Part shown: positions 31,736 to 58,614 of the stretch, piece by piece
How the letters are laid out: each line of letters starts with the position of its first letter
Numbering within the stretch: position 1 is the first letter of the stretch
Position numbers and translations under genes: made by a program
Source of the DNA: Artemia franciscana
Taxonomy: Eukaryota > Arthropoda > Branchiopoda > Anostraca > Artemiidae
Reading direction: 5' to 3'
Assembly: GCF_032884065.1 (NCBI RefSeq)
Contig: NW_027062693.1
Span: forward strand, 1,537,631 to 1,601,630
Length of the DNA stretch: 64,000 nucleotides
Notes under the pieces: generated by a model
Told to the model about the DNA's origin: nothing
What the model saw: the letters and a program-made list of their open reading frames with translations, nothing else
Database searches by the model: none

Positions 31736-31935
31736 TCGGGACACAAATGACAAGCGGGACACAGGGAATATAAATGACGACCGGGACACTCAAAGAGAAA
31801 TTACAGACCGAGATACCGGGACACAAATGACGACCGGGACACAGGGAATATAAATGACGACCGGGACAGAGGGAGACAACTACAACGGGGACGCCGGAAG
31901 GGCACATGGGGGATATATAAATGACGACGGGGACA
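31736..31935 (+). repeat. minisatellite inside Helitron helicase
   Basis: Alternating 'gggacacaaatgacgaccg' and 'gggacacagggaatataaat' units, directly abutting helicase codons at about 31936. The same units border the helicase remnant of the inner Helitron (35400-35690, opposite strand) and of the 4.6-5.3 kb fragments. Confidence 0.8.
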
Positions 31936-32281
<346 letters not shown>

Positions 32282-32284
32282 TAG

Positions 32285-32312
32285 CCGTTCGGGTGGCGCT
32301 TCGGGCCACCCT
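32285..32312 (-). terminator. Helitron 3' terminal hairpin (inner element)
   Basis: GGGTGGC pairs with GCCACCC around a short loop, just upstream of CTAG on the minus strand. Helitron 3' hairpins act as rolling-circle termination signals. Confidence 0.7.
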
Positions 32313-32431
32313 AACACCTAGTTGGTGGGGTGCTTCGCGCCCCCCCCCCCAAGCCCCCCCGCGCGCGTAAGTCGTTACGCGCCATATTAGTTACACGACA
32401 TTGTAGTTGTGTCCCTGTGTTCCACCTGTGA

Positions 32432-32433
32432 AT

Positions 32434-32480
<47 letters not shown>
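32432..32480. repeat. (TA)n microsatellite
   Basis: About 48 bases of TA near the inner Helitron 3' block, in the position of the TA tract of the outer copy. Confidence 0.95.
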
Positions 32481-32483
<3 letters not shown>

Positions 32484-33209: not shown

Positions 33210-34307
33210 TTAGTTAAAAATTTCTTTAAGTATTTCTAGATAATTCTTTTGATATTTATTTAAAAGTTCGTTATAATGAAAACTAAATTTTTTAAATTGC
33301 CAAGTTAATTTATTTGCAGAAAAACCTCTTGATATCAATTTTTGGCTTAAGATTTTACATCTATTTTTAAAATCAATATAATTACTACAAATCCTTGCAT
33401 AACGAAGTAACTGCGAGAAAAACGCTGAATATGTGATATTTGAGTGTATATTACTTTCAGGGAATGGGAAACTAATCACTTCAAAATCAAAATCATCCGT
33501 TTTATTATACATTTTAAAACTTAATTTATTATTATCACAAATATTAATATTTAAATCTAAGAAATGATCTTCATGACCAGTGCCATGACTAGGCTCAAGA
33601 ATAAGCTCTGATGGATATATATTTTTAGAAATATCAATGAAATCCTTACAATTTAAGACCAAAATATCATCTAAATATCTTTTATTATTTGACAAAGCAT
33701 GTTTTAAATTAATTGGATTATTCTTATCCATCATATATTTATATTCTAGTTGACTTAAAAACAAGTCAGCTATAAATGGGCTGGCATTCCCCCCCATGGG
33801 AATTCCCATAATTTGCTTGCACAAATCACCCCCAAATCTTATATAAGTATTGTATAAAACAAATTCCAATAACTCAAAAATCATATCCAAGCTGTAACAT
33901 CTCAAGTAAACTGTAGTATTAAAGCAGTTTGTCCATATGGCTTTTTTATTATAACTGTCTATTTTTAAGAACCTTTTACTAGATAAGAGGAAAGATTTCT
34001 TTATAATAGTTTTTAAATTATCAAACACTAAATTAAGTGATAAATTAGTATACATTGTCGTAAAATTGAAAGACTCAATTCTTTTAGCTGAAACCATTGT
34101 TAAAGAATCTATCACCTGCAGTGAATTATTAACACTCCAATATGGATTAAAATTCGAAAATTTTTTAATACCAGAACAATAGGTTTTAAGTTTATTTACA
34201 ATTTCCTTTAAAATTAAAGAGAGGTCAGTAGCAGCAATGCGGGTTGGACATTTAGCTGCTCCAGCAATAAACCGTGGTTTAGGGAAGTATTTCTTCAGTC
34301 TTTTCAA
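33210..34307 (-). CDS. Penelope-like reverse transcriptase, catalytic ORF
   Basis: 365 residues. Motifs in order: PKPRFIAGAAKCPTRIAATD near the start; SFNFTTMYTNL (RT motif A, with the first catalytic Asp position apparently substituted in the N-F-T-T context); GIPMGGNASPFIADLFLSQL (motif B); RYLDDILVL (motif C, catalytic DD); and HFLDLNI. The GIPMG and RYLDD pattern is that of Penelope-like/TERT-related RTs, not the GVPQGS/FADD of the non-LTR elements nearby. No GIY-YIG endonuclease follows the stop within the element, so if it is a Penelope-like element it is an endonuclease-lacking or truncated one. The reading frame is long and open, so decay is recent. It overlaps the preceding ORF by about 29 bases in another frame. 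Confidence 0.8.
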   Translation of the reverse strand: MKRLKKYFPKPRFIAGAAKCPTRIAATDLSLILKEIVNKLKTYCSGIKKFSNFNPYWSVNNSLQVIDSLTMVSAKRIESFNFTTMYTNLSLNLVFDNLKTIIKKSFLLSSKRFLKIDSYNKKAIWTNCFNTTVYLRCYSLDMIFELLEFVLYNTYIRFGGDLCKQIMGIPMGGNASPFIADLFLSQLEYKYMMDKNNPINLKHALSNNKRYLDDILVLNCKDFIDISKNIYPSELILEPSHGTGHEDHFLDLNINICDNNKLSFKMYNKTDDFDFEVISFPFPESNIHSNITYSAFFSQLLRYARICSNYIDFKNRCKILSQKLISRGFSANKLTWQFKKFSFHYNELLNKYQKNYLEILKEIFN

Positions 34308-35304
34308 TTAAATTCTCATCCTCTATATTTACCTTTTCATAAACATTAGTTGTGCATAACTCCCTTTTTAAGATATCACAATACAGCTTCTGACAAATTA
34401 TGGCAAAATTATTATTAGCTTTATCCACTGGCACAATTACAAATTCATTCTTTAGATTAGCAATTGCTTGTTTAATCTTCGCATTATAAAATAATGATTT
34501 AGTGTTACTATTTTTTAAGTTAGAATATATTTTATTTCTTACTCTACTAATAATTAAATTCTTCCAACTTTGAAAACTCTCTTTATTTTTATTCTCTTTC
34601 TTACACCACTTATCAATAAATAAATCGAAATCATTTTCCAAGCCATCAAGAACACTCGATGGTTTCAGATGATGAGAAAGACAGAAATTAGCCCCTTTAT
34701 TCATTATAATTTGAAGATCATCTTGCTTTATTATTGACAAGTCCCCTGTTATAACATGTTTGTAAGTAGGATTTACAAATGGGCCAAGTTGCTTACAATT
34801 ACAAACCGGTTTCCAATTTATATCGCTATCTAGTTTTTTTAGTATTAAATTATAATTAAAAATAATTTGCCCAATAGTTTTTGAAAATTTATAAGTTAAA
34901 ACTGGACTATCATTATAATTTAAATTACTAGGAAAGGCCTGTTTCACATGCCGCTGATTTAAAAATTCTGGTAAATTAATATCTTCAATCTGCTTACAAG
35001 TAAAATTAATAGGTAAATATAATCTGTTATCCTTATTACTAATCGTATCGAACTTTTTCTTTTTTGAAATAAATTTCGTTTTAGTTAGAATGCAAATTGT
35101 ATCACATATTACTTTAAAATTATAATCAAGAGCTGTATTATTCTTAACAATCCAGAAAAGTTTGATTAAATTCCTCTTGGATAAATTATTTAGACACTTT
35201 ATTACAGAAATCATACCCCTAGATTCAAGTAGCTGGCATTGATTTATAGAAAGCATATGTACATCTAATTCATTTTTTCTATTATTTTTCCTATGTCTGT
35301 GCAT
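34279..35304 (-). CDS. Penelope-like RT, N-terminal ORF
   Basis: 341 residues, rich in Lys/Asn. Landmarks are VCNCKQLGPFVNPTYKHVIT, GANFCLSHHLKPSS, and FVIVPVDKANNNFAIICQK, which lead into the catalytic ORF: together they form the usual one-protein layout of this RT family, split here by a frameshift at about 34290. The first codons overlap the helicase remnant on the same strand, so the native start is probably an ATG a few codons downstream (near 35257). The insertion junction in the helicase lies near 35285-35290. Confidence 0.75.
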   Translation of the reverse strand: MHRHRKNNRKNELDVHMLSINQCQLLESRGMISVIKCLNNLSKRNLIKLFWIVKNNTALDYNFKVICDTICILTKTKFISKKKKFDTISNKDNRLYLPINFTCKQIEDINLPEFLNQRHVKQAFPSNLNYNDSPVLTYKFSKTIGQIIFNYNLILKKLDSDINWKPVCNCKQLGPFVNPTYKHVITGDLSIIKQDDLQIIMNKGANFCLSHHLKPSSVLDGLENDFDLFIDKWCKKENKNKESFQSWKNLIISRVRNKIYSNLKNSNTKSLFYNAKIKQAIANLKNEFVIVPVDKANNNFAIICQKLYCDILKRELCTTNVYEKVNIEDENLIEKTEEILP

Positions 35305-35402
35305 ATAAATAGATTGTCAGGTTTAGTGACTCTTGAACATGAAACATATAATTGTCCATGGGAAAAACAATCCGTATTCAGATCTATACCTCATTATTTT
35401 AA
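35283..35402 (-). pseudogene. helicase C-terminal remnant of the inner Helitron
   Basis: On the minus strand 'gtatagatctgaatacgg' through 'ctatttatatgcacagac' corresponds to 31998-32095 of the outer copy. It translates in part as [13 protein letters not shown]. It is interrupted upstream by the minisatellite and downstream by the RT ORFs. Confidence 0.8.
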
Positions 35403-35690
35403 TGATGTGTCCCTGTGTCCCGGTCGTCATTTATATTCCGTGTGTCCCGGTGTCCCGGTCTGTAATTTCTATTCGAACAATCCCTGTGTCCCGGTCGTCA
35501 TTTATATATCCCGCCTGTGCCCCTGGCGTCCCAGTTGTAGTTGTGTCCCTATGTCTCGGTTGTCATTTATATTCCCTGTGTCCCGGTCGTGATTTGTGTC
35601 CGGGCGTCCCAGTCTGTAATTTCTCTTTGAGGTTCCCGGTCGTCATTTATATTGCCTGTTTCCTGGTCGTCATTTGTGTCCCGGTATGTA
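35400..35690 (-). repeat. minisatellite of the inner Helitron
   Basis: The reverse complement of the 31736-31935 units ('gtcccggtcgtcatttatat' type). The plus-strand frames of 99-123 residues here are artefacts of the repeat. Confidence 0.8.
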
Positions 35691-35979
35691 ATTTCATCAG
35701 TTGACAAACATGACATCAGTCGACAAACAACTTCATGACGCATACAGCTCAATCCTAATAATGACGTCAGTCGACAAACATGACGTCAAACGACACACAA
35801 ACATGACGTCACTCGACACACACACAGACAATTTATTTTTATATATAGATATATATATCTATCTATATTCACAGGCGGGACACAGGGACACAACTACTAT
35901 GGCGCGTAACTAATATGGCGCGTAGCGACTTACGCGTGCGGGGGAGCTTGGAGGGGGCACAAAGCGCCCAATCAACTAG

Positions 35980-38508: not shown

Positions 38509-38546
38509 CTTATCTTTACCCGACGAGATAAGGGTCTCGTATAAAA
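38509..38546 (+). promoter_or_regulatory. predicted promoter of the tail-collar gene (TATA box, two GATA motifs)
   Basis: TATAAAA at 38540-38546 lies 50 bases before the first ATG. CTTATC (38509-38514) and GATAAG (38527-38532) form an inverted pair just upstream. GATA factors drive many gut genes in arthropods, so gut expression is a reasonable guess. The mobile element ending at 38472 leaves only about 70 bases of non-repeat upstream of the TATA box. Confidence 0.45.
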
Positions 38547-38595
38547 CTTCGAATAAATCCTAGTTGAAAGTCTGTGAGAAAGTATCTACAGAAAA

Positions 38596-38683
38596 ATGAA
38601 AATCATAACCATATCTATAGTAATTCTGGTAGTCGTTTCAGCCAAAGAGCCAACCAGCAAAGAAACCTATGATGACTATGAAG
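38596..38683 (+). CDS. tail-collar gene, exon 1 (signal peptide)
   Basis: ATG opens 29 codons beginning MKIITISIVILVVVSAKEP: a basic start, a hydrophobic core and a VSA cleavage site after residue 16, that is, a textbook secretion signal. The mature part starts KEPTSKETYDDYE. The exon ends after the first base of a codon at a G|GTAAGG splice donor (38684). Joining to the acceptor at 49653 restores the frame exactly: the split codon becomes GAT (Asp). The ATG is preceded by AGAAAA, an acceptable eukaryotic start context. The frame is too short for ordinary ORF calling and would be missed without the downstream exon. Additional small exons in the 11-kb intron cannot be excluded. Confidence 0.65.
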
Positions 38684-39084
38684 GTAAGGTTTTAATTTTT
38701 ATCCAAAGCCTCGTCTTGATTTTTGAAATAGGGTTATAACATTTTTCACCTTAGTAAACTTATGCACAAATTACGGAGAGAAAATTTGACCAATTCTTAA
38801 TTCATGTGTAATAAAAGACAACGCCATTCTCACAAGTATTATACATGTGAATTGATAGCCATTCTAATCCTACAAACGACTATTTCTTCAGTAATAAAAG
38901 CAATAAGAAAGTATGACAATGCTTCCACTGTAAAATTAATAGTGTTACTCACCTAATCCATACAATTAAATAAAAAACTTTTCCTGCAAAAAACTTTTTC
39001 AAAGAAAAGTAACGAGCTCCATTAAACCAAAAGGAGCAAAAATGTAATCAAATAATCTACCAAGCATAAAACTACCATACATTG

Positions 39085-39990
39085 GTATCAAACAGGTCGT
39101 GGTAACGAACTGTAGTAAGGAGCGACCCGGCTCAATAGCAACCAAAACTCTAAAAAATGGAATTTTGATACCAATAGCTGCATCAAAAGAACCGCATTTT
39201 AATGCTGACTTTAAATATATAAGTTTCATCAAGTTTAGTCTTACCCATCAAAAGTTAAGAGCCTGAGAAAATTTGCGTGGTTAGAGAAAATAGGGGAAAA
39301 CACCCCCTAAAAGTCATAGAATCTTAACGAAAATCACAACATCAGATTCACCGTATCATAGAACCTTACGGTAGAAGTATCCTATCTACAAAAATGTAGA
39401 ATTTTGTATTTTTTGCCAGAAGGCAGATCACGGATGGGTGTTTTTTTGTTTGTTTGTTGTTTTTTTTCCCAGGGACGATCGTATCGACCCAGTTGTCCTA
39501 GAATGTTGCGAGAGGGCTCATTCTAACGAAAATGGAAAATTCTAGTGTCTTTTTTAAGTGACCATAAAGATTTGAGGGCACCTAGGCCCCCTCCCACGCT
39601 AATTATTTTCCCAAAGTCAATGGATCAAAATTCTGAGACAGCCACTTCATTCAGCGTAGTCGAAAAACCTTATAACTATGTCTTTGGGGACGACTTACTC
39701 CCCCGGAGTCCCCGTGGGAGGGGCAACAAGTTACAAACTTTGACCAGTGCTTACATATAGTAATGGTTATTGGGAAGTGTACAGGTGTTTTCAGGAGAAG
39801 TTTTTGGTTGGGGGGAGGGGTTGAGAAGAAGGATATTGGACGGGGTAACTTTTTATCGAGGAATTTGTCGTGAAGGAAGAAAATTTCCATGAAGGGAGCG
39901 CAGGATTTACTAGCATTATTAAAAAAAAATTGTGAAAAAATAAATACGAAAACATTTTTTTCAGCTGGAAGTAAGGAGCAGCATTAAAAC
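39085..39990 (-). mobile_element. modular inverted-repeat element, 3' half, reversed
   Basis: The minus strand reads the family body from the 'gaaaaaactttttcat' region to the end palindrome (CAGTTCGT...ACGACCTG, one change). Hairpins 1 and 2 are missing here; half of hairpin 1 occurs at 40330-40460. Confidence 0.75.
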
Positions 39991-39999
39991 TGATCTTAA

Positions 40000-40330
40000 C
40001 ATGTATCTGAGACTTCAGCTTCTTTTTCTCACCAAGATTCATCCCGATCCCTCCAATCTAATCGTTTTCCATAATTTTAGGTTCCCACACCCCAAACTCC
40101 CCCAATGTCACCAGATCCGGTCGGAACTTAAAATAAGAGCTTTGAGACACAATATCCTTCTAAATATCAAATTTCATTGAGATCTGATCACCCGTTCGTA
40201 AGTTAAAAATACCTCATTTTTTCTATTTTTTCAGAATTAACCCTCCCGCAACTACCCCAAAGAGAGCGAATCCGTTCCGGTTATGTCAATCATGTATCTA
40301 GGACTTGTGCTTATTTTTCCCACCAAGTTA
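40000..40330 (+). repeat. fragment of the ~300-bp unit family
   Basis: Matches units of the element at 36.2-38.5 kb ('gatcacccgttcgtaagtta', 'caatcatgtatctaggactt'), truncated on both sides by modular-element pieces. Confidence 0.7.
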
Positions 40331-40462
40331 AACTGTTTTAAAAAGAGGAGTTGAGAGAAAGAGTCAAACTTTAGCGTAAAGAGCGGGGCGTTGATGAGGA
40401 AGCAGCCCCTTTCATATAAGAAGTAATTTCTGTTCGTTTTAAGTTTTAATGTCGTATTGATA
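40330..40462 (+). mobile_element. half of modular element hairpin 1
   Basis: The right arm with 'tttagcgtaaagagcggggc' and 'tttcatataagaagtaattt'. It ends at 'taatgtcg' where unrelated DNA starts. Confidence 0.65.
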
Positions 40463-40479
40463 TTTGTCGTATTTGTATT

Positions 40480-43015
40480 GATATTAATTCCTGAAAGCTA
40501 AATATCTAAAGTTATTTTTTCAAAGCTAAATATCTAAAGTTTTTTTTTCACTCAGGCTGGATTTAAAGCTTTGATATTTCTAGGTCCAAGCGCAATTTTT
40601 GCAAGATTTTCAGGGAAATTTCCAAATATTCTAGAATAGGGAAAATTGCATGGCCTAGTAGTCCTATTGGTGGATCCTAGTCTGGTTTCAATGCTGTTTC
40701 CATTTCATTTTTAATTCTGTAATAAGCACAAAAGAAAATTGTAATATTATTTACTTTAGTAAAGCGCCTAATAAGCAGCAGGCCTTATGATTTTACGGTT
40801 AGAGAAACAGGCAGTAGACATACTCTTGTTTATAGTGAGGAATGTAGGTGTCTTGAACAGTTTTGGAAAAAGGTTATAAATGAATCTCGTAATTTTAGGA
40901 GTAGTATATTGTTAATACATTTTTTGGGCTGGGGGAGGATATTGAGGGAGGCTAAGTGTCAGCTCCCATGATTTTAGAGTAAACTATCATTAACCAGTTC
41001 TTTTTTGGAGGAAGGGGGATTAGGTTCAGGAGGGAGGGCCAGGGGCCTGCTCTCATGATTTATCAATAATTAATTATTTTTGGAGAGTCAGGGGGGGGGT
41101 CATTCTGGACCAGGTTTCGGCTCCCATAAACTTTGGAATTAAATATTATTAATAAATTGTTTTTTTTTGGAGGGGGTTCGGTCTGTGGATAGCCAATGAT
41201 GAGTTTTAATTTTAAAATAAAATTATGGTAACAAGATTTCCTCAAAGGGGAGGAGTAATGCAAAGAAGGCCATGGGTCAAGTCCTTTAAGTTTTGGAACA
41301 TAATAAAGCAGAGGGGGGGGGGTTGACTTATCTGATCTTTGAACCATTTTAAAAACCCTCGCATAAAAACTTTACATGCCTCCATGATAGAGCAGACAAC
41401 ACTTGCCCACAAGCTCTGGGGGGGGGGGGGTAGTGTTAACTCTGGAGTTTTTGTTATCTGATCTTTTGACTTGTTTGGAAAAGTGGCTTGGTGGGGGGGG
41501 AGATAGTTGCCGTCAAGTTACTTTTGATTCTCAAAGAGGGAACATGAACTTTCGATTTCTAGTCATTTGAGTCCTCTCCAAAGTTAACCCTTTCCATAAA
41601 AATATCATATGCACCTGAGTGGAAGTTACATCCCTTTCCCTGGGTTTTGGGGGAGGTTACATTAACCTTATTTTTTTTTTATCTGATCGTTGGACTGTTT
41701 CAAACAAATGTATATCTCGAAATTTTGATTAAATGCGTTGGGAAAAAAAGGTGTAGGTATAATGGGGCAGGGATAGATACCCCCGTTCACTTTGACTCTT
41801 AAAACAAGGACTCTCCATCCAAAGTTATTACGACAACCTCTTCCATTAGACCCTACATACTCCCAGGGCAAAAGTTACAACCCTGGTCTCTCCAATTCCA
41901 AAGGAGGAGGGTATTTTTGTCCTTAAGTTTTGTTATCTGATCGTTGGATTATTTAAAAGATTATATCTAAATCAACTTGATCGATGCATTTAAGGAACAG
42001 AGGGTGTCTGAGGGAAGTAGTTAGACCTACCCTCCTTTCCCTTACGACTCATAAAAAATGTATTTGGAACTTTCAATTTCAAACGTATTGAGCTACCTCT
42101 GAAGTTTATATAGCCACCCCTTACGTAAAAACCTTATATGACCCCGGGACATAACTTAAAACACTTGCCACAGGGCTCCGGGGGTTGTGTTGACCTCCAA
42201 GTTTTGCTATATGATAATTGAATTGTTTACAATAAAATGACTGTCTCAAAATTTTACCGGATAGGTTTGGGGGAAAAGGGCCTGAGGGAAGGGTTAGATT
42301 ACCTCTGACCTCTTTTGGCTCTTAAAAGTGAATATAAAAGTGAAATTGAAAAGTGAATTTTCAATTTCCAACCAAAAGAACCCATCTGAAGCTAATATGC
42401 GCCACCCTTCCGAAAGAACCATATATGCTCCCAGAGGATAATTTACAACACCTTTCCCTGGGCCTTGGGGATTTGTCAGCCCCTGAGTTTTTTTATCAGA
42501 TCTTTTAACTGTTTTTAAAAATTTTATCAGATGTATTTGGGAAAATAAGGGCGTGGGGGGGGGCTATTTCAACTCCCATCACTTATGATTCCTAAAAAAG
42601 ACTCTTTAACTTCCGATTTTTATCAACATACCCCCCTCCGAAGTCTATACGACCATCCATTCCATATGAAGTGCCTCTATAGTAAAACATAAATATTAGA
42701 GTCTTATAGGCTTGGGGTTGGTGGGGAAGGCTAGTTGCCATCAGATCACTTTAGAATCTTGAAAACCGAACTAGAAGTTCAATTTCTAGTCATTTGACTC
42801 ACTTTCGAAGTTTATACGACCACCTTTTCCATAAAAACTGTAAATGCCTCACGCATAAGCTACAACCCTCCCCCGGGTTTCGGGAGGATTATGTTGACCC
42901 TAGCACTTTCATCTGATCTTTGCACTATTTTAAACAAAACGGCTATATCAAAATTTTGATTGGATGCATTTGAGGAAAAGAGGGTCTTGGGAGGGGGTAC
43001 ATTCCAGCCGATCAT
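40480..43015 (-). repeat. composite repeat with ~250-bp units, matching 60340-61790
   Basis: The first part (40480-40960, including 'actcaggctggatttaaagc' and 'gtctggtttcaatgctgttt') is alignable with 60370-60790 in the same orientation. Then come reversed 250-bp units, each showing 'ttgttatctgatc', a 'tttgaactgtttt' variant, 'caaaattttgat', 'gatgcatttgggg' and 'agtttatacgaccacc'. About eight units are degraded to different degrees. The G-rich and C-rich runs are part of the unit. Confidence 0.7.
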
Positions 43016-43024
43016 TTTTGATAC

Positions 43025-43790
43025 CTCTTAAAACAAGAGAGGACAGCTCATGTGGCACTTTTGACGAGGGAAGAGCCAAGAGTTTCATCCAACCAAGTTT
43101 CATTACCATCTCTCCACTCTAAGCGATTTTTCAAGATTTCTGGTTTCCCACTCCGACTCCATCCAATGTGAACGGATCTGCTCAGAAATTTAAATAAGAG
43201 CTTTGAAACACAAGGTCCTTCTAGATATCAAGTTTCACTAATATCCGATAACCCGTTCATAAATTAAAAATACCCCATTTTTTCAAATTTTTCCGAACTA
43301 ACCGCCCTTCAACTCCCCGTTAAATGGTTGAATCGGGGAAGTAACTATTTCTAATTTAATTTTATCGGGTCCCTGAAACGCCTGCCAACTTTCAGTGATC
43401 GCTATAGTGATCATGTATTTAGTTTTGGATCTTCATCATGTAAAAATTGGAGTGGCCCGGGATTGGAGCCTGAGACCTCTCGCACAATAAGCGATAATCA
43501 TACCCTTAGACCAAAAGCCATACTTAAGAAGAACAATCATTTTTTTATCAGCAATTGAAATTCTTCTCAAATATCTTGTTCGCTCGCTCCCCCCTCCCTA
43601 GATGGTCAAATTGGGAAGAGACTATTTCTAATATAATCTTGTCTGGTCCCTAATACGCCTGTCAACTTTTGTCGTCCTAGTTGACCTAGAGGTGCCCAAA
43701 CCAGCGAAAGCGGGACCGATAGAAAGAAGGAGGGACAAAATGGCGATTGCTATATGTCACTTGGTAAATACCAAGTGCCATAAAAGTAAC
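43025..43790 (+). mobile_element. second copy of the ATGGCACTTG-ended element
   Basis: Starts with 'agctcatgtggcacttttgacgagg' type sequence and ends with CACTTGG-taaata-CCAAGTGCCATAAAA. It has one 300-bp unit only and includes a tRNA-like segment at 43449-43521 that splits it. Confidence 0.6.
43449..43521 (-). pseudogene. tRNA-Pro-like remnant (SINE or tRNA pseudogene)
   Basis: The minus strand reads GGCTTTTGGTCTAAGGGTAT, then GATTATCGC...GCGAGAGGTC and GGCTCCAATCCCGGG. This is the tRNA-Pro layout: A box TGGTCTAAGGG, anticodon stem and B box. The anticodon-loop position reads ATT rather than a proline anticodon, the anticodon stem has a mismatch and the acceptor arms do not pair. It is therefore not a functional tRNA. 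A shorter relative lies at 62225-62246. Confidence 0.65.
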
Positions 43791-45065
43791 TAAAACATTC
43801 AATTCAATCAAATGATCTACCTCTGATGTCTATACGACCACCCTTTGCATAAAACCATATCTGCCCCAAGGGTTTAACTTACAACACATTCCTCGGGCTC
43901 TGGGGGGGGGGGTGTCAAATCCTCAGTTTTGTTATTTAATCTTTAAACTATCTTGAACAAAATTGTTATCTCAAAATGTTGGTCAGGTGCATTTGGGGAA
44001 GAAAGGGACTGGGGGGCTAGCTACCCTCTGATCACTCTTGACTCTTAAAACAGGCTTCAAAAATTCCGGATTTACAATCGAATGAGCCCCTTCCGAAGTT
44101 TATACGACCATCACTTCTATTTAACACCTTTTATGTCCCGGGAGCATAGTTTACACAACTTGTTCCCTGGTTCTGGGAGGCTGTGTTATCCCTGAAGTTT
44201 TGTTGTATGCTCTTTGGTTTATTTTTTGACAAAATTGCTATATAAAAAATTCGGTTGGAATCCTTTGAAGAAAAAGGATTGATTGGGAGGTGAATTGATC
44301 TAGTGAATGAACTATTTTAACAAAATGGGTATTTCAAATTTCTTTCGGATTGGTTTGAGGACAAAAGGCCGGGGACACGCTGTCCTCCGGTCTCTTTCGA
44401 CTTTTGAAAACTGAGCAAGAGCTTTTAATAAGACCTTTCATATGAATTACAAATGCCGAAAGCACAAAATACAACGCCTGCCCCCGAGCTAGGGGTGGGG
44501 GGCTGTTATGTTGACACTGATGTTCTGTTATCTGATCTTTGAACTCTTTTTAACAAAATGACTATCTGAAAATTTTTATCAGATGCATTTGGGGAAAAGG
44601 GCGGGAGGTATTTAACATCTGATCCCTCTTGTTGTTTTAGAAGTGAACTAGAAATTTGAATTTCCAAGCAAATAAGCCCCCTCTGAAGTTTATAGAGCTT
44701 TCCTTCCATAAGAAAAAATTTTACCCCAAGGGCATAATTTACAACGCCTGTCCCAAGGACCTGCGGAGTTTTGTTTTGTATTCCGATCTTTGAAGTATTT
44801 TTAACACAATGGCAATCTAAAAATATTTATTGGATGCATCTTGGTAAAAGAACGTGGTGGGGCTAGATGTCCTTCAATCACTTTTTACTCTTAAAGAGGG
44901 CACTGGAGCTTCCGATTTCGAATCGAATGAGCCCCTTCCAAAGTTTGTACGAATACACCTTCCATATGAAGTGTTGCTTGGAAAAGAAAATTATTGGACC
45001 CGTATAGCCTTTACTATAATCAACGCTTGCGCGTTGCCTCTGAAAAGTCCTGGGTGTCATTTATA
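43790..45065 (-). repeat. array of ~250-bp units (continued)
   Basis: About five more reversed units of the family, with 'gttatctgatctttgaact', 'agatgcatttggggaa' and 'aagtttatacgaccat' markers. Ends near the 'ctgggtgtcatttatag' at 45050-45066. Confidence 0.65.
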
Positions 45066-46290
45066 GTAGTATATGCCCCTTTTGAACCGACGGACGGAGA
45101 TAGTAGTGACCCATATGATATTCACTTACAGTTTTAGGAGTAAGTAGAAAGGGTTCTAGGTGCAAATTCGGTGTTTTATTAGAAGATTTTTAAAACCCAG
45201 GTCGGTAGAAATAAGGATTGATGGTATCCTAGCCCAGATAAATTTTCTGTAGGAAAAGAAAAAATATTAATTATTCTCTTCACTGGACGTTGCGTAACTC
45301 CACAACCGAAACTGTTTTAAAACCGTTTTTCCGTTATTCAATATTACAATTTAATAGCAGCTCTGGCAGGAGAATTCTTTGAAATAGCTTACCGAGGGTG
45401 GACAGCACCGTCATAGGGCGGTATCTAGAGTAATAGGACTTAAGTATATTTGTGTCTATCCCCGAACAAAAGGACTTAAGAGCCGAATAAGTATCAACAC
45501 ACATTTGAAATAAAATCTCTAATTTTTAACATAAGTGACACGTGCTGAAGGTGATTCACCGTGGTACTATCGACACTGGGTGCTTTGCAGTATTTCGGCT
45601 TTGATACTTCGTCAATAACCTTTTGTTTTTAAGAAATTATTAAATATTTCTTTGCTAAACACAAAGCTTCAACTTTTCACGTCAATACTTACTCGAATCA
45701 TTTTCCAGCCTAGCATTTTCCAGTGCGTCTACTGATGTTCAAGAACATTAGCCAAAGAATATTTGACATCCAATTCATACTGTTTGAAAAAAAGCCAAAT
45801 ATTATAGAATTATGTTTGGGGGTCTTTGGAGGCCTTCACTGCATCAACTGACTCTGTTCTTTCGTATTTTTGGAAACAAAGTACATATGAACTAGACTGA
45901 GTTCTCCTTGAATCTCTCCACACTTCGAACCATAATTTTGAACAATATTTGGCATGCTTAATCGCAGGGGACTTGTAACATCTTTGTTTTCATTATTTCT
46001 TCATAGACCCTAGACAGAGACACTTTGTGGGATCCGTATAGAAAATCTTAACTCGATAAAATATATTTCAGAATTGACCTAATCGAAAAATATCGAGGCA
46101 AAAAAGGTGAAATTAGCTTCCCCAAGGAGTTAGGAGAGTGGCAAACGAATGATGTTATTTCGTGGTTCAAAATAAACATGTTTATCCCATTTGGGTTTTC
46201 AGCTTTCAGAGAAACCACTCTTACCGCTTTTTCTCCGACTTGTTTGTCTAATTGAACTTTTTTCGTCGAATATTTTGTAGTTCTCATTAA
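45066..46290. other. intronic stretch without recognised content
   Basis: Not clearly related to the repeat families here. No coding motif was seen on either strand. Confidence 0.35.
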
Positions 46291-46294
46291 AACT

Positions 46295-47340
46295 GTGACT
46301 GATAGCAAATCACAACTTCCAAATAAGTCGAGTCACAAAATATCAAATTTAACGCTTCAAACTATGACTTTGAAAAAACATAAACATGAGAGTCTAAAAA
46401 AAAACGAAAACAGAAATGATCAAGCGATAAGCTTGACAAACCGACAGCTCCAAACAAGTCAAACCAACAAATATAAAAACCAAACTTAGCAAATCAAAAC
46501 TTTCAGACAAAACATCAGTTCTAGACCAGCCAAACAACAAAATATCAAAACTTAATATAAGCCATAATTTTTCATGGTTGAGAATCAATGTTGAAAAAGG
46601 CCAAATCATCAGTTCCTGATTACACAAATTACCACAAATTAATATGGCAAACCATACGTTTCAGATAAAATACTTATGAAAGAATAAAAAACTAAACTCA
46701 GAAATACAACGTAAAAACCAAAAATTTAATATAGCAAACCATAACATTCAGTCTACACGCGTATGAAAAGTTATGAAATCAAATTTAAAAAGACCATTTC
46801 ATGTGTTCCAAGCATGTCAAACAACATAATATCAAAGTTTAACTTAGTAAACCATAACTTTAAGACAACAGACTTATGAAAGCCTAATAAATTAAACTCA
46901 GAAAAGACCATATAATCAGTTCCCGACATGACAAACCACAAAATACTAAAAATTAAAAAACAAGCCATGTGTTTCAAATAACACACACTTGAAAGGTTAA
47001 GAAACCATCCTTGAAAAACACCAAGTTCATAAGTTCCACACTAATCAAACCAGAAAATACCGTACAAACCAGAAAAGCTTAGCATAGTAAAACCTAATTT
47101 TTAGTCTATACTCTTAGAAAATATATAGAAACCAAAATCAGAAGAGACCAAAATTTAGGTTCTGGACAAGTCAAACCAGAAAACACCATAACATAAAACA
47201 GCAAACCATAACATTCAGACAGCAAACTAATGAAATGTTAGGAATTGAAACTCAGAAAAAAGCAAACTGTCAGTTCTTGACAAGAATCGCCACAAAATAC
47301 CCAAACTTAACAGAGCAAGGTCAGTTTGCACGGGTTTTAG
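46295..47340 (-). repeat. degenerate tandem array, ~130-bp unit, about eight copies
   Basis: Each unit contains, with many substitutions, 'tcagttcccgacatgtcaaa', 'ccacaaaatatcaaaattta', 'catagcaaaccataacattc' and 'gacttatgaaa'. Clear starts fall near 46500, 46610, 46790, 46915, 47030 and 47160. All small frames inside are by-products. Confidence 0.7.
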
Positions 47341-47399
47341 AATACAACATCGTTAATAATAATATTAGAGGAGTGGGATCTAAGATTCATCTAGTTGTG

Positions 47400-47960
47400 G
47401 ACAAACCTAGCTTTAGTGATCCGTGATAATCATTTTTCTTGACAAAGGAGTGGGTTTTTTCTTAACGTCATTTTTGTAAGGATTTAGTAATGCCGTTCAG
47501 GTAAGATGAAACATAACAAAACAAACAAATTTATACTGATTTGTGACATCCATTTAATTTTCCTTTTTAAGACAATGAAGAGGTTTTTTCCTGAATGACA
47601 CATAAGTGAGATTCTTTTAATGACAGATCACGGAAGATGAAGCATCTCGCAAAAAAACCTCGTTGCACTGAATCATAATAATAATTATTTTCCCTCTCAA
47701 GACGACGGAACAAACTTTTTACCTAGTGATATTCACGTAAATTCATCGAATTGATAGTTCAAATAAGATGAAACATTAAAGAAGAAAACAGAAAGCCTAG
47801 TTTTAGAGATTTAGAATGCTAATTTCTTCAATTTTCAAAACAATGGAACAAGTTTTTTTTTAACAATATTAACGTAAGATTTTTGTAATTACAATTTACT
47901 TAAGACGCACGAAAAGATTTTTCATAAGACGAACGAATAGATTTTTCATAAGGTTAGAAA
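47400..47960 (+). repeat. degenerate tandem array, ~135-bp unit, four copies
   Basis: A 'tttagtgatccgtgataatc' type start recurs near 47410, 47540, 47670 and 47810, each followed by a 'gacaatggaacaag' variant, 'taacgtaa' and 'taagatgaaacat'. It follows directly on the previous array but is a different unit. Confidence 0.65.
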
Positions 47961-48639
47961 CATACAAATGTTGGAAACATGCGAAACATGCGATTGGTTA
48001 GATCAAGGTTAGAAACATGCGAATGGTCTTAAAAAGTCAGCAGGACATGAATAGAATTTCAACCCACAAAATTTTCTTGACAAGCCAAACCGCATAAATA
48101 CCAAAACATAACATAGCTTCGTCAGTTCCCATTAGCATTGGAGTAAAATACCGTTACTGATATTTTTAGGAGACCGGGGCCGTGGACGACCTGTTCCATA
48201 AAGCCTTGGAATTAAATCTCAAATTTTTTTGGAGGGGGTGCACATGAGCCATGGAGGACCAAGCGCTCGGGGTAGATGCTTATTTTACTTACGTTTTGAA
48301 ATAAGTAGAGGGGGCAGAGGACATTTGTACGTGGGGGAAAGCGTTCACTTCAAATGAAATAGCATATTATTAATAGAAATTTAGGAGGACAGACGAATGA
48401 GAACTTGGAGGGCCAGGGGTAAGGGCGGGGGAGAAGGCAGTAGCCATTTCTCTTTATTTAGTTGAAAAATTTCATGATTTACTAATATACCAATAAAACT
48501 GATAGGACTCCAAAAGCGTACAGCACAGAAAGAAAACCAGATAAACACGTATTTGAAAACGTTAATTAGTGAAACTAGATTAACACCAAGAATCATAGTA
48601 TTCCTTCGACATTCTGAAATAAACAAGTAAAGCATAAAT

Positions 48640-48945
48640 GCGAAATGATTGACCTTCACTCGAAATTAAAGAGATTTGTTGTGCAATTTTTGTCTTGCTT
48701 CCAGGAATCACAGCATTAATACGACAGTTCAATATAAGCCAATTATGCATGTATGTGAATTCGTGTAACCTTCACTCTAAGCCAAACAAATCGGTTAGGC
48801 AACTAGCATACGAGCCAAGTACTATTATGACCCACATAGTGACCCTAGCATTATTGTATCATCTTAATTCAATATACACAAATATGTGAAATATTGTGAC
48901 CTTCGTTCAAAGTCAAAGAAATCTTTTACACAACTAAAGTGCCAG
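48640..48945 (+). repeat. degenerate tandem array, ~120-bp unit, three copies
   Basis: 'gaccttcactcgaaattaaa', 'aaccttcactctaagccaaa' and 'gaccttcgttcaaagtcaaa' mark unit starts near 48651, 48767 and 48898. Confidence 0.6.
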
Positions 48946-49640
48946 CCAAATTAGAGCTAATTGACCCCAACAGGAGATGTTGGGTATAAATTTGGTCTAG
49001 GTCCCTGTCTGAAGTATAGCCCTTATACTACGAACTTTTTGTGTCGAATTTTCATTAAAGCCTAGGTAAGAAAAAAAGATATTGCTGAAAAACTGATTTC
49101 AATTTTATTCAATTTTTTTTTTATTTGACATTCAAATAAATAAGAGTTAATTTTTTTTGTAGAAAAATCGCATAATTATTACATTTTAATTTCATTTTCT
49201 TTTCTGATAAGAAAAACTGTAATTCTGCATGTGCTCTACTTTTTTTTAGTCCGAGTACACTTTAGGTATATCGAGGTACCAGAAAGGGAAACTTTTGAAG
49301 CAATTTATTCAAGACTATGTAACGCCCTCAATTCCTTTTAAATGACCCTATTCCGGGTGAATCCCCCTCCCCCTCTCCATTCCAATCTCATATTTCAGCC
49401 TTAGGTTCCAAACTTTCTTACGGTGCATTTAACCAGGCTTTCGAAACATGTTCATCAGTTTGAGATAATTTAAAAGGAAAGTGGAAGAAAAAAGGCAACA
49501 TATTTTTTTTCAGATGCCTCACTAATTTACAAGAACAGTTTATAATTTTAGTCTACATTTCATAGTCATTTTTAAGCCAGTGATACTGAGACAACTGGCT
49601 ATCATACAGAATAGCCTGGTATATAATATAATGAAGGTTT
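48946..49640. other. 3' part of the intron, no recognised content
   Basis: AT-rich, with a short C-rich piece near 49362-49378. No repeat family or coding motif was recognised before the splice acceptor. Confidence 0.35.
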
Positions 49641-49653
49641 ATTTTTATTACAG

Positions 49654-50327
49654 ATAATTGCAAGGGGCTCTCTTGCTCCAGAGTGCAAAGTCGTAATGAA
49701 GACTGCATTTCTGCACTTCCAGATGCCACTGACCTTATATTGACCTTACCATACCAAAGTCACTGCGCTAAATCATTATCAATTGGTGATTTACAAACAT
49801 ATATAGATCAAAGCATAAGACAGTTCAGGACAGGGCAGATATTTGCATTTGCAACAGATAAAAGAGACCCTTATCTATTACCATGCGATGGCGCGTCATA
49901 TTATAAAGCCGATTATCCTGACTTGTATGATGCCCTTAAATACACCATAGGTACTGAGGAGGAAGGAGATGATCCCTTAAAGTTTAGAGTGCCTAATTTG
50001 GGTCCCACTCCTTATTTAAGAGCAGCCTCTCGTAGCAGTGTTGGTGAGAAGACTATGCAGAGCATACAATCACACAGTCACACTTCTGAGCCAATAGTAG
50101 GTCAAATGGACAATATTGCGAGTTTTGGCAGAGAACTACGGACTAGCGGTGCTTTTTCAGCAACTCATTTAAACAATAACCCACCTAGTCCAAAAAGTTG
50201 GGCTAGTAACCTTGGTGATAATGATATGACGATTGTTAAATTTCAAGCAACACCTCGCATAAATAGTGCAGGTAGTTCAGAGACTCGTCCTAATTCGTAT
50301 GGAGTGTACTATGCAATTCATATTTAG
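49654..50327 (+). CDS. secreted phage tail-collar (tail-fibre) domain protein, terminal exon
   Basis: Joined to exon 1 this gives a 253-residue protein. After the signal peptide comes a linker with Cys32, Cys37, Cys47 and Cys67. Residues 48-78 (ISALPDATD then KSLSIGDLQTYI) match the N-terminal pattern of phage tail-fibre proteins. Residues 90-152 form a tail-collar domain: GQIFAFATD, LPCDGASYY, YPDLYDALKYTIGT, FRVPNLGPTPYLRA. SHSH follows at 169-172, and the C-terminus has the family's usual ending SSETRPNSYGVYYAIHI. In phages this fold lies in tail fibres or collars and often mediates receptor or glycan contact. The reading frame is intact, with AATAAA at 50370-50375 and again at 50393-50398. 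The acceptor is TTATTACAG. The spliced secretion signal and added cysteines are not phage features, so a domesticated, laterally acquired gene is inferred. The exact role is unknown; extracellular binding is the most natural guess. Confidence 0.75.
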
Positions 50328-50369
50328 GTTAGTGGATCTTATTTTAAGTGTTGTTGTAAAATTATTAGA

Positions 50370-50398
50370 AATAAAAGGGAAATTTAATGGCAAATAAA
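50370..50398 (+). terminator. two AATAAA polyadenylation signals
   Basis: AATAAA at 50370-50375 and 50393-50398, 43 and 66 bases after the stop of the tail-collar exon. The second overlaps the start of the decayed downstream gene. Confidence 0.45.
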
Positions 50399-54211: not shown

Positions 54212-54556
54212 CAGGGTAAAGTTTATATTTTTATCCAAGGCCTCATCTTAATTTTTAAAATAGGGTGATAAGATTTTTCATCTTAGCAAACTTATGCACA
54301 AATTACGGTGAGAAAATTTCACCATTTCTTAATTATTTCAAATAATCTTAATCATGTGTAATAAAAGACAAAGCCATTCTAATCCTATAGACAACTCTTT
54401 CTTCAATACTTAAAACAATAAGAAAGCATGACAATACTTCTACTATAACATTATTAGTGCTACTCACCTAATCCATACAATTAACTAAATAAACTTTTCT
54501 GCAAAATAACTTTTTCAAAGAAAAGTAAAGAGTTTCATTAAACCAAAAAAGAGCAA
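54212..54556 (+). repeat. copy of the first ~360 bp of the tail-collar gene intron
   Basis: Aligns with 38684-39045 from the donor site onward: GGGTAAAG versus AGGTAAGG, then 'tttttatccaaggcctc', 'cttatgcacaaattacgg', 'catgtgtaataaaagacaa' and 'actcacctaatccataca'. It carries a splice-donor-like start. It is either a repeat that supplied the intron start or a duplicate of the gene's 5' end. Confidence 0.75.
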
Positions 54557-56526
54557 ATATGAACGATTTACTGGAAAAAAACTGGTAAAAACTGGAGGAC
54601 ATACATCATTGCAACATCGATACACAAAAACAGCAGCTTGATAATCTCGAATCTGACCAATGTTAAGCACTCGTAATTTCTCAAAACATGACGCGGTATC
54701 ATTCACATTTTCTACACAATTACCAAGAAGACGTACCGTTTTATTTTGTAGGATCTGAACTCTTTTAAAATTTACATAGAAATTACTAGACCAAAGGACA
54801 CAACCATAAGAAATATAAGGCGCAACAATGGTGTGGTATAATAATAAAAGAACTGGTAATGGTAAAACCTGCTTTAATCGACGCAAAATTCCCAAACCTC
54901 TAGCAACTTTAGCTGCAACAGGATCACTATGGTTCTTCCAAGATAGATTACAATCAAGCTGGAACCCCAAATAACGCACTTCACACACCTGTGACAAAGG
55001 CCTGCCATTAAAAAATATCTTTATATCAACACATGGAGGCTTACCAACTCTCCTATAAATAATAAAATTAGTTTTATTAACGTTTACTGACAAAAGGCTC
55101 AAACTTGTAAATACAAAAAATGCCTTTAATACCCAATTAACTTTCAACAACAAATCATCGACAGATTGAATAGACATAGTTAAAGCTGTATCATCCGCAA
55201 AAGTCGTAATACAACACTCAGGTAAGTAGAAACGCATTGAATCAACATGCACAAGGTACAGAAGTGGTCCCAAAACAGACCCTGAGGTACACCACACCTC
55301 ACTTAAAAAGGAGAAGAAAACACATTATTTAATAGAACTTGAATAGATCTACCACTTAAGAAACTATTAAACCACTTTAAATAGTTACAACAAACTCCAA
55401 GGGATTGTAGACGTTTGAGTAGTATATTAAAATCCACTGTATCGAATGCTTTTCTAAAATCGATAAAAACGGTCAAAGGGATTTCACCACGTTCAAAGCA
55501 TTTATTTGAAATATCACAAAGGGAATGCACGGCGTCCGACGTCGAATGACATTTCCTAAAGCCAAACTGGTTTTCACTTAACATCCCCGTTTTCATAAGG
55601 TGATCATAAAGCCTTTTCTGGACAATTTTTTCAAATATTTTCGAAAACAAGGGTAGGATAGATATGGGTCTATAATTTTCAATTTCTAGCTTAGAGCCAC
55701 CTTTGTGAAAGGGGATTGCTTTTGCCCTTTTAAGCGCATCAGGGAATATACCGGTTTGGAGGAGAAGATTGATGATTTGGACTATACATGGTATTAAATA
55801 ACACATCACTGACTTAAAAGTTTTCGGATTAATGCCATCTGTCCCTGCTGAATTCGATTTGATTGTTTTCACAACCTTCAGAATTTCGTCTCCAGTACAA
55901 GGCTGAAATTCAATTTCATTTCCAATTCCTCTATCATCCACAAATTCATCTTTCATTAAATCATTATTAAAATTCACCAACCCTTGCGCCTGTACATTTT
56001 GCCCAACACTTGAAAAAAACCCAGCAAATTTAGTCGTGAGACTTATTTCATCATTAACAAGTTCACCTTGAATCAGTAGCAAATTAGGTGGAGCTTCTTT
56101 CTCTTTTCCCAATTGGTCATTAATAACTTTCCAAATTCCTTTAGTATTATCCTTATTTAAACTCAATTGGTTGGCAAAGTATTCTTTTTTAGCCTTTCTT
56201 CTCATCGAGTTGACTTTGTTGCGCATTATTTTGAATTCTTCCAGTTTAATGGCACATTCACTATTTAAATATTCCAAATACGCTTGATTTCTCAAATCTG
56301 ACACTTTAAGAATTTCAATAGTTATCCAGGGCTTTCTGGGTTCACACTCACGGGGTTTCAAGAATTTCACTGGGCAAGTCTTATCATAAATTGGCTGTAC
56401 GACCCCCATCATACGATCAAATGCACCAGAAGCTTTATCTTTCATATCCATAATCTCACTAAAATCAATGGTACTCAACTCTTCACCAAGCCTCTGTAAA
56501 TTCACCTTATTCAATGACCTAGTCAT
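54557..56526 (-). pseudogene. non-LTR ORF2, reverse transcriptase part
   Basis: The 407-residue frame 56526-55303 begins with the linker (ECEPRKPWITIEILK, NTKGIWKVINDQL) and carries RT motifs TDGINPKTFK, ALKRAKAIPFHKGGSK, NYRPISILPLFSKI, QFGFRKCHST and TVFIDFRKAFDTVD. A frame change at 55300 interrupts the motif-B box. The next frame (55297-54557) has SGSVLGPLLYLVHVDS, the intact catalytic FADDTALTM, and thumb motifs YLGFQLDCNLSWKNH. The thumb is complete but the C-terminus runs into flanking DNA. Jockey/CR1-like by motif spacing. One corrected shift would separate it from a functional-looking domain, so its loss of activity is recent. Confidence 0.9.
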
Positions 56527-57363
56527 TACTTTTTTATTTTATTTCTTTTTATTCGACCACAAGGTACCGCTCCAACAATTGGGAAATGGTTCGAACAAGG
56601 GTATAGAACCACATCGGCATAACTACGGTCCAGATACTTAGAACCAACAAAAATATTATCAATAAGAGTGGCTGAATGACTCGTAACACGTGTTGGAATA
56701 TTTACTATGGGGAAAATATCATGAGCAACCATCAAATTAAAAAAATAAAATTCGCTCCATTCAATGTAAGCAGATCAAAGTTGAAATCACCCATACAAAT
56801 AAAATCTAAACCTTTCCGAGACACTGCACGCGCAAGTTGATCAAACCCACGTTCAAATTCTTCCCAGCTAGCACTTAGTGGCTTATACACAACACTAATC
56901 AAAAATTTACTACTTCCCATATCAAATTCCAGACTAAAACTTTCGAATTTACCCTCTATCCAAACATCAATATCATTTCTAACATGGTATGTCAACGACT
57001 TAGAAATCAAACACGCAATTCCCCCTCTATAAAGTGACGTCCGGTTTTTAATCTCCAAATTATAATCTGGAAAAGAATACAATGAGACAGAGTGTTCCTG
57101 ACTCAAAAGCTTTCACATATACCAATAAAACTAACTTTACCTTGAGAATCCGAGAGAAATTGCAACACATCCTCATAACACGTGGCTAGGTTGCAATTCC
57201 AGGCACATAAACTCAGTAAATCAGATTCCACGGGGTTCAACTGCGAACATTGAACATAAGCACTGTTTCTCAACTGTTTAAATTTAACTTGGTTCATACA
57301 AGGTTCAATATCATTTGCTATTTGTGCCGACAAAACCTGTTCAAGGAGAAAAGGTCGGCTCAT
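56526..57363 (-). pseudogene. non-LTR ORF2, APE-type endonuclease part
   Basis: Three overlapping frames. 57363-57103 contains LLSLCAWNCN and ends at FIGICES (catalytic Glu). 57106-56732 contains RGGIACLISKS, DIDVWIEGKFESFS, VVYKP and MGDFNFDLL. 56735-56526 contains SHSATLIDNIF and SNHFP, where most relatives have SDHFP. Frame changes at about 57105 and 56735. This domain nicks target DNA to prime reverse transcription. The Asp-to-Asn change in the final box would damage catalysis even without the frame breaks. Confidence 0.85.
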
Positions 57364-57651: not shown

Positions 57652-58614
57652 TCATTGACCATACTTGTCTTTCGCTGCGTTCAAAATGTCCCGGCGACGT
57701 TTAGTTAGAGACTCCGATACAAAAACACCAGCTGAAGCAAGTTTAGCTTTAGCTTTAAACACATTACGGGCCATATCTTTGCCAGAAAATTTAACAACAA
57801 TCGAAACAACTCTAATAGACCTCACTTCATGCTGTTTAGTCGGATTATTCAATCGAAGACGGTATACATTAATCAAATCAGAAGAGGGGACGTCTGTCAC
57901 AGACATTTTGTTATTTATAATGCGAAACATTGTCTTACGAGTGTCTACACCAGGTAACTGCTTTACCCCTTGAAAAACAAGACTATCGAGTAAGGATTCT
58001 TGATCATAATCATCAAGCTTTTTTTCTATTCTACTAATCCTCTCCTCCAAATTTTCAATTTGATTTCTCAGACTACTTAGAGTCTGCTCAATTTTTACAA
58101 ACTTTGGATTAAACTCGAGTGTGACTGAATCAAAAAGCTGGCTGACTATCAGTTCAGTAGCCTCTTTCAGTGACCTTGGGTTTTTAAGCTTTTCAGTCAC
58201 TTTCTTTGTAATATTATCCAGCAGATAACTTCTTGTCTTCTCTAGTTGGGCTTCAGTTGCAACTAATTTTTCATAAATTGGGGCAATACTTGAAGAAACT
58301 GAGTTAGACCCTAATTTATCACTTGCTTTCAGGGCTAAAAAAGCCTTAGAAAGAGTTTTATAAACTTCGGGGGTATTATCAAGTTCCACAATTGCTTTTT
58401 TGAAAGCAGGTGTGGATGAATCTATCGTTTTAGGATTATATTCTTGAAGTTTCGCTTCTATTAGCCTAAATTCATCATGACTACCGTAACAAAAGACCAG
58501 ATAAGTGGGCTTTCTGTGCGAATCCTTTCCTATTTGCAAAATTCTCACAGGCCATAGGGGGTAGTTCTTGAATTTAACTAGCGCAACATCAAACTGCTTG
58601 AAACGCTGCATCAT
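57652..58614 (-). CDS. retrotransposon ORF1 protein with N-terminal PWWP-like domain
   Basis: 320 residues, intact. Residues about 5-60 look like a PWWP domain: FDVALVKFKNYPLWPVRI (with YPLWP in place of the PWWP signature), then YLVFCYGSHDEFRLIEAKL and a closing EY. PWWP domains bind methylated H3K36 nucleosomes and DNA. The conserved Trp is present; by my alignment one of the usual cage aromatics is Cys. Residues about 165-205 form a coiled coil (LSSLRNQIENLEERISRIEK). Residues 210-320 resemble the RRM-like/C-terminal nucleic-acid-binding region of retrotransposon ORF1 proteins (SLLDSLVFQGVKQLPG, VSIVVKFSGKDMARN, VFVSESLTKRRRDILNAAK). Zinc knuckles are absent. It probably forms trimers on RNA; the PWWP-like module may guide the particle to marked chromatin (inference). 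Confidence 0.8.
   Translation of the reverse strand: MMQRFKQFDVALVKFKNYPLWPVRILQIGKDSHRKPTYLVFCYGSHDEFRLIEAKLQEYNPKTIDSSTPAFKKAIVELDNTPEVYKTLSKAFLALKASDKLGSNSVSSSIAPIYEKLVATEAQLEKTRSYLLDNITKKVTEKLKNPRSLKEATELIVSQLFDSVTLEFNPKFVKIEQTLSSLRNQIENLEERISRIEKKLDDYDQESLLDSLVFQGVKQLPGVDTRKTMFRIINNKMSVTDVPSSDLINVYRLRLNNPTKQHEVRSIRVVSIVVKFSGKDMARNVFKAKAKLASAGVFVSESLTKRRRDILNAAKDKYGQ

Follow-up and report, generated by a model that had tools for sequence, protein, structure and literature searches.

A two-exon gene of Artemia franciscana joins a signal-peptide-like exon to a phage-type tail-fibre tip module

The window, a stretch of 64,000 nucleotides of the Artemia franciscana genome (C107:1537631-1601630), carries on its forward strand a gene of two exons, the second of which codes for a tail-fibre tip module of the kind found in bacteriophages. 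A preliminary description of this DNA, made from its letters, had recognized a tail-collar/tail-fibre protein in exon 2 and had joined it across a long intron to an exon for a signal peptide. Two more copies in the same genome are used for comparison here, a nearly identical one on scaffold C20 and, on scaffold C8, a diverged paralogue. The parts of the gene in the window are the following (LINE, long interspersed nuclear element).

38540-38546 (+): TATA-box-like TATAAAA, 50 bases 5' of the ATG, read from the sequence and of putative function
38596-38683 (+): coding part of exon 1, a signal-peptide-like N-terminus and a short acidic tail; phase-1 donor GTAAGG at 38684
38684-49653 (+): intron of 10,970 bases, GT..AG, with LINE-like and repeated stretches
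49654-50327 (+): exon 2, coding for a cysteine-bearing linker, a short helix-like neck, the Collar domain, a variable insert and the ETRP..AIHI end, followed by the stop
49659-49766 (+): linker with cysteines 3, 8, 18 and 38 of the exon-2 protein
49776-49826 (+): neck LSIGDLQTYIDQSIRQF, a putative coiled coil, 13 of its 17 residues identical in the C8 paralogue
49833-50000 (+): Collar domain PF07484 (Pfam), exon-2 residues 61-116
50073-50081 (+): HxH motif (H141 and H143), which aligns with His445 and His447 of T4 gp12
50118-50213 (+): variable tip segment, codons 156-187, with 12 of the 15 exon-2 differences between haplotypes
50280-50324 (+): ETRPNSYGVYYAIHI, the returning C-terminal strand of the module, with the counterpart ETRPRN..YxIK in a Roseobacter phage fibre and in many viral contigs
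50370-50375 (+): AATAAA, a polyadenylation-like signal soon after the stop; the C8 stop also has one

Exon 1, from the ATG at 38596 to base 38683, encodes MKIITISIVILVVVSAKEPTSKETYDDYE. Its phase agrees with that of the exon-2 acceptor; splicing the two together would give a protein of 253 amino acids. Exon 2 lies in an open frame at 49635-50327 (+) and, counted from the ACAG acceptor whose last base is 49653, encodes 224 residues. The C8 paralogue has the same plan: a signal-peptide exon starting MKIIVILAIVVSA.. stands 22,879 bases upstream of the collar exon, on the same strand and in the same order. This exon matches exon 1 of the window (blastn E 1e-9 and 2e-9, in 50 kb of C8), has a 9-base in-frame gap and ends at a GTAAGT donor in phase 1, the exon junction being C8 4772592/4749712. 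The pairing of two exons with matching phase that had been proposed for the window is thus found again in the paralogue. Since frame and phase are kept in two diverged paralogues, a chance pairing of an ATG with a collar frame is very unlikely, and judged by its sequence the locus is a true arthropod gene of the nuclear genome, with two exons. That the host is an arthropod is also apparent from 97 matches of the cuticle domain Chitin_bind_4 in the genome, which bear out the earlier view of an animal gene. The hydrophobic MKII..VVSA start, like the phase, is kept between the window and C8 paralogues. The signal peptide is probably cleaved after ..VVSA, and secretion of the 253-residue protein is plausible.

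The C8 paralogue has no TATA-like box at the equivalent place, and the DNA 5' of the ATG aligns poorly between the copies. From 46273 to the acceptor, the window intron aligns with the longer C8 intron of 22,879 bases in broadly conserved order, with LINE-like stretches out of order. Because intron stretches near exon 2 align between the window and C8, the collar gene was probably duplicated together with its intron. In a search for a middle exon, 196 open reading frames (ORFs) of at least 20 amino acids in the intron gave 23 same-strand translated matches in the C8 intron, 14 of them with stops in C8 and nine stop-free, the latter 20-44 amino acids long; a small middle exon appears unlikely.

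The translation of exon 2 contains a CDG box, YP.L, VPNLG, SHSH, SSETRP and an ..AIHI end, as well as five cysteines, at residues 3, 8, 18 and 38 of the linker and at residue 78 in the CDG box, and all the motifs and cysteine positions that the preliminary description had listed are present. Exon 2 matches the Pfam Collar family with 28.6 bits (E 1.3e-6; curated cut-off 24), and the C20 (28.5 bits) and C8 (31.1 bits) copies score above the cut-off as well. Among the PHROG tail-fibre families, the best match covers residues 56-223 (E 1.2e-7). A profile of 20 modules from IMG/VR viral contigs, hand-picked for ETRP-type ends, matched residues 58-223 of the 224 with 49.3 bits, a score somewhat flattered since such a choice favours query-like relatives, and residues 58-213 of the C8 protein with 38.1 bits. 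The best score of shuffled sequences against this profile was 5.9 bits (941 of 1000 shuffles reported). A pooled profile of 16 rows (A3), 14 of which were viral and taken from the same 20, aligned over its whole length with T4 gp12 in the Protein Data Bank (PDB; E 1.2e-18) and also matched T4 gp37 (E 1.6e-4). As the viral-contig profile spans most of exon 2 and A3 covers gp12 from end to end, the similarity is one of the whole tip module and reaches beyond the short Collar motif. On the evidence of these profiles, exon 2 encodes a complete phage-type tail-fibre tip module, and its earlier assignment to the tail-collar/tail-fibre proteins was correct. A search of NCBIfam with the exon-2 protein gave no match.

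The assembly searched consists of 1,270,528,402 bases in 6,468 contigs; the scaffolds C1, C7, C8, C20 and C21 measure 34.7 to 71.5 Mb, and C22 to C24 measure 0.02 to 0.26 Mb. The comparisons with C20 and C8 rest on 50 kb of each. Exon 2 gave three matches from six candidates in its own genome, namely the window itself, C20 (96%) and C8 (62%), and the C8 protein gave five matches from seven candidates. C20 carries both exons at about 98% identity (exon 1 98%). The window and C20 share colinear blocks of about 95 to 98% identity, and the gaps between them are extra, largely repetitive DNA on one side. Eight chosen blocks comprise 41,514 aligned sites, at 1.8% of which the two differ. Given this colinearity at about 98%, C107 is read as a second haplotype, and C107 and C20 are best read as two haplotypes of one locus. 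The window lies outside the chromosome-sized contigs, which might point to contamination or to an assembly chimera. Both were rejected: the same locus with both exons is found on the 38-Mb C20 and its diverged paralogue on the 54-Mb C8. The recurrence of both exons on the two scaffolds excludes these explanations, so that the chimera for which the preliminary description had allowed has a negligible chance of being correct. That description had looked to sister species for related spliced copies; the one found here, the C8 paralogue, is from the same genome.

The C8 linker has retained cysteines 8 and 18. Cysteines 3 and 38 are both missing from it, and this joint loss suggests disulfide pairs 8-18 and 3-38 in the window protein. 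Immediately 3' of the C8 gene (C8:4748555-4748746, minus strand), the C-terminal part of the collar gene is present once more as a partial copy, interrupted by two TAG stops. When the genome was searched with the Collar family, three of the six matches were above the cut-off. The others, one on C7 and two on C6458, scored only 18.2-18.5 bits and were rejected as further collar genes; around one of the C6458 matches, long ORFs look retroelement-like by eye. To judge from these gene models, a small gene family of Artemia franciscana, with two exons per gene, combines a putative secretion signal with a tail-fibre tip.

In T4 gp12, zinc is bound on the threefold axis by His445 and His447 of each chain (PMC3004832). 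In the gp12 chain of 5iv5 the residues from 441 onwards are QMSYHKH, and in the profile alignment His445 and His447 of this chain share the HxH column with residues 141 and 143 of the exon-2 protein. The HxH motif is invariant across the window, C20 and C8 copies. Of the 14 viral rows of A3, 12 have the motif and the short tail fibre 9cuy lacks it, so that it is common in the family but not universal. By its position, the motif is a putative zinc site. The shrimp module also shares with the receptor-binding domain of gp12 (1ocy, 1pdi, 5iv5) the order from the collar to the C-terminal strand. In contrast to gp12, it is encoded by a nuclear gene of an animal, which is split and whose start resembles a signal peptide; a cysteine-bearing linker takes the place of the fibre shaft, the insert is shorter, and among the ORFs scanned no other phage genes were recognized around it. 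The collar of T4 gp37 comprises residues 811-860 and 1016-1026 and its receptor-binding part residues 907-996 (PMC12724248), and this order of collar, receptor-binding part and collar matches that of collar, insert and end strand in exon 2. The gp37 tip (2xgf) thus resembles the shrimp module in its two-piece collar enclosing a receptor-binding insert, with a weak profile match, whereas the shrimp protein has a single HxH.

Between the window and C8 genes, the ratio of nonsynonymous to synonymous substitution rates (dN/dS) is 0.58 over the whole coding sequence. It is lowest in the C-terminus (0.24) and exon 1 (0.25), intermediate in the neck and collar (0.51) and highest in the linker (0.82) and the insert (0.87). 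Fisher's test gave p values of 0.0016 overall, 0.007 for exon 1 and 0.014 for the C-terminus; these are raw values from five tests in all, with rounded counts. The two haplotypes differ in exon 2 at 15 bases in 14 codons, with ten amino-acid and four silent changes, none of which is in the linker. Twelve of the 15 differences fall within 93 bases (50119-50211), and none of 20,000 permutations gave 12 per 96-base window. Codons 156-187, which lie between the HxH motif and the end strand, contain nine amino-acid and two silent codon changes. The position of this insert corresponds to the receptor-binding tip of phage fibres such as T4 gp37 (PMC12724248). The excess divergence in the insert is clear; it may stem from balancing selection, conversion or chance.

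Phage tail fibres are devices for the recognition of bacterial surfaces, and the arrangement found here suggests that an animal uses the receptor-binding device of a virus outside its own cells. We consider it rather probable that this genuine two-exon gene encodes a secreted, zinc-locked trimer which binds microbial surfaces. Exon 1 would supply the signal peptide for secretion, and three chains would be knit through the neck and collar into a homotrimer. The three HxH pairs would bind a zinc ion that locks the trimer on its axis, and the three variable inserts would form a tip that could bind a repetitive surface ligand with avidity. Artemia is a filter feeder in bacteria-rich brine, and the likeliest ligands would be the bacterial or algal glycans or lipopolysaccharide that such a shrimp meets. 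Animal collectins have a cysteine-bearing N-terminus, a trimerising neck and a globular recognition head, and the shrimp protein would function in the manner of a collectin whose framework is a phage fibre. This is a working analogy in architecture: the fold is different and no sequence relation is claimed. A more specific role is conceivable, though we put it forward only tentatively, namely that the phage tail-fibre tip was turned into a secreted pattern-recognition protein, an immune or feeding lectin whose tip is polymorphic between haplotypes and remodelled between paralogues.

The origin of the module was approached through searches for relatives. Exon 2 matched two of 50,697 phage records, the better being the tail fibre of Roseobacter phage CRP-207 (UAW58936.1; 28.7% over residues 44-222, E 4e-4). 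The two proteins have the SETRP end in common, but the phage fibre is much too distant for a donor. Plasmid records gave one weak Burkholderia match. Narrow pattern scans of viral and prokaryote contig collections found no relative, and a broad scan of viral contigs found at least 51 loci. A quick tree was built from 49 of these loci, two modules of at least 400 amino acids being left out, and the three animal sequences. The latter formed a lone clade with a stem of 3.9 changes per site, and 25 of the 49 inner branches were unresolved. The shrimp sequences were neither nested in nor near a donor clade among the 49 viral rows, and a recent lateral transfer is not supported.

Several of the results weigh against the proposed reading of the gene as a phage-derived, surface-binding trimer. 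The link of exon 2 to gp12 itself, as traced by profiles, passes through the viral rows of A3: a PDB sequence search with the exon-2 protein alone found no solved relative, and a profile of the three shrimp copies gave one chance-level match in the PDB, to LSm7 (E 1.4). The searches of phage, plasmid, viral-contig and prokaryote records yielded no close relative that could represent a phage or bacterial donor. Constraint on the neck and collar is marginal (Fisher p 0.065), and the ratio of the linker between paralogues is 0.82. For the insert, dN/dS between haplotypes is 1.31, which is not above 1 by test (10 vs 2 changes, Fisher p 1.0). Among 40,770 overlapping 93-base windows in the 41.5 kb aligned, 14 contained at least 12 differences, and these were at two places only, the second being at 22568-22672 (starts 22568-22580), outside the collar gene. 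Since an equally hot spot exists outside the gene, a neutral or conversion origin of the insert variation is possible.

The protein could also be a secreted trimer with a structural role in eggshell, cuticle or gut lining, in which the collar would act as a trimerisation cap and the insert would be unconstrained. The insert ratios speak for such a role: between paralogues the value is 0.87, and the test on the two haplotypes does not place it above 1. We nevertheless think it rather unlikely, as the collar, the metal site and the end strand are kept, the insert is open and in frame in both paralogues, and the variation between haplotypes is concentrated in the insert and absent from the linker. 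A decaying or silent gene, with exon 2 intact merely through its youth and the link to exon 1 unused, would be in keeping with the partial copy and its two TAG stops next to the C8 gene. It is improbable, because in both paralogues, at a dS of about 0.7, the reading frame is open, the splice sites are retained in the same phase and a poly(A)-like signal is present, and exon 1 and the C-terminus look constrained. The secreted surface-binding trimer is the reading that we prefer.

As to where the module came from, the collar family is met in phages, viral contigs and bacteria, and transfer from phage-like elements is hence the natural reading, which we regard as probable but unproven. Neither the lateral transfer put forward in the preliminary description, with a phage as donor, nor the direction of such a transfer is established, since our searches gave no close relative among viruses or prokaryotes and the branch is very long. 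An old eukaryotic lineage, or a route through virophages or giant viruses instead of direct recruitment from a phage, deserves serious consideration even if we do not hold it to be the probable course, and it would be compatible with the proposed function. Collar-domain proteins have been reported from virophages (PMC3671162 and PMC12724248), and the lone animal clade with its long stem, like the lack of a close phage or bacterial relative in our searches, fits such an indirect origin. Against it, the relatives found here belong to phages (two records), to a Burkholderia plasmid (one record) and to viral contigs of IMG/VR, and no viral gene was recognized beside the copies. Of the 20 window ORFs of at least 120 amino acids, 12 were compared with Pfam, and apart from the collar exon none of these matched a viral structural or replication gene that might indicate an endogenous virus, virophage or polinton. 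Seven of the 12 matched reverse transcriptase or its endonuclease, four of them above the cut-off. The 50 kb of C8 contain two other ORFs of at least 150 amino acids.

Among the literature matches listed, no title dealt with collar-domain proteins in animals, supplements and eukaryote protein databases being outside the scope of that search, and such genes may have been annotated in databases earlier. Arthropod chimeric genes arising from horizontal gene transfer (HGT) include secreted crustacean proteins in which animal and foreign sequences are fused (PMC13389597), similarly to the gene described here. The main text of this 2026 survey of arthropod HGT chimeras contains no mention of phage, collar, tail fiber, Artemia or Branchiopoda, and that of a 2026 metazoan HGT compendium none of collar, tail fiber or Artemia. 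If our reading is correct, recognition modules pass from phage-like systems into the extracellular biology of animals, and on the more specific, tentative reading an animal lectin would keep the original job of the phage protein, that of gripping bacteria. Whether animals recognize bacteria by means of phage adhesins then becomes a directly testable question, the more so as Artemia franciscana is kept in laboratories and both its genome and its transcriptomes have been published (PMC11492255).

Elsewhere in the window, candidate mobile elements and a microsatellite were observed, and an Rfam scan of the window gave 0 matches. A 320-amino-acid ORF at 57652-58614 on the minus strand matches the PWWP domain marginally, with 25.7 bits against a cut-off of 25.6, and lies upstream of endonuclease-like and reverse-transcriptase ORFs at 54515-57112 on the same strand; it is possibly ORF1 of a LINE, with a chromatin-reading domain. 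Two adjoining ORFs at 33210-35316 (minus strand), one of which has a reverse-transcriptase match below the cut-off, presumably belong to a Penelope-like element. The sequences flanking them, 32243-32481 and 35294-35780, are only about 230 bases apart on C20, so that this element may be a polymorphic insertion. A long AT-rich microsatellite at 31854-32321 (plus strand), which appears among the listed ORFs by its IYIYIY frame, is not gene-like.

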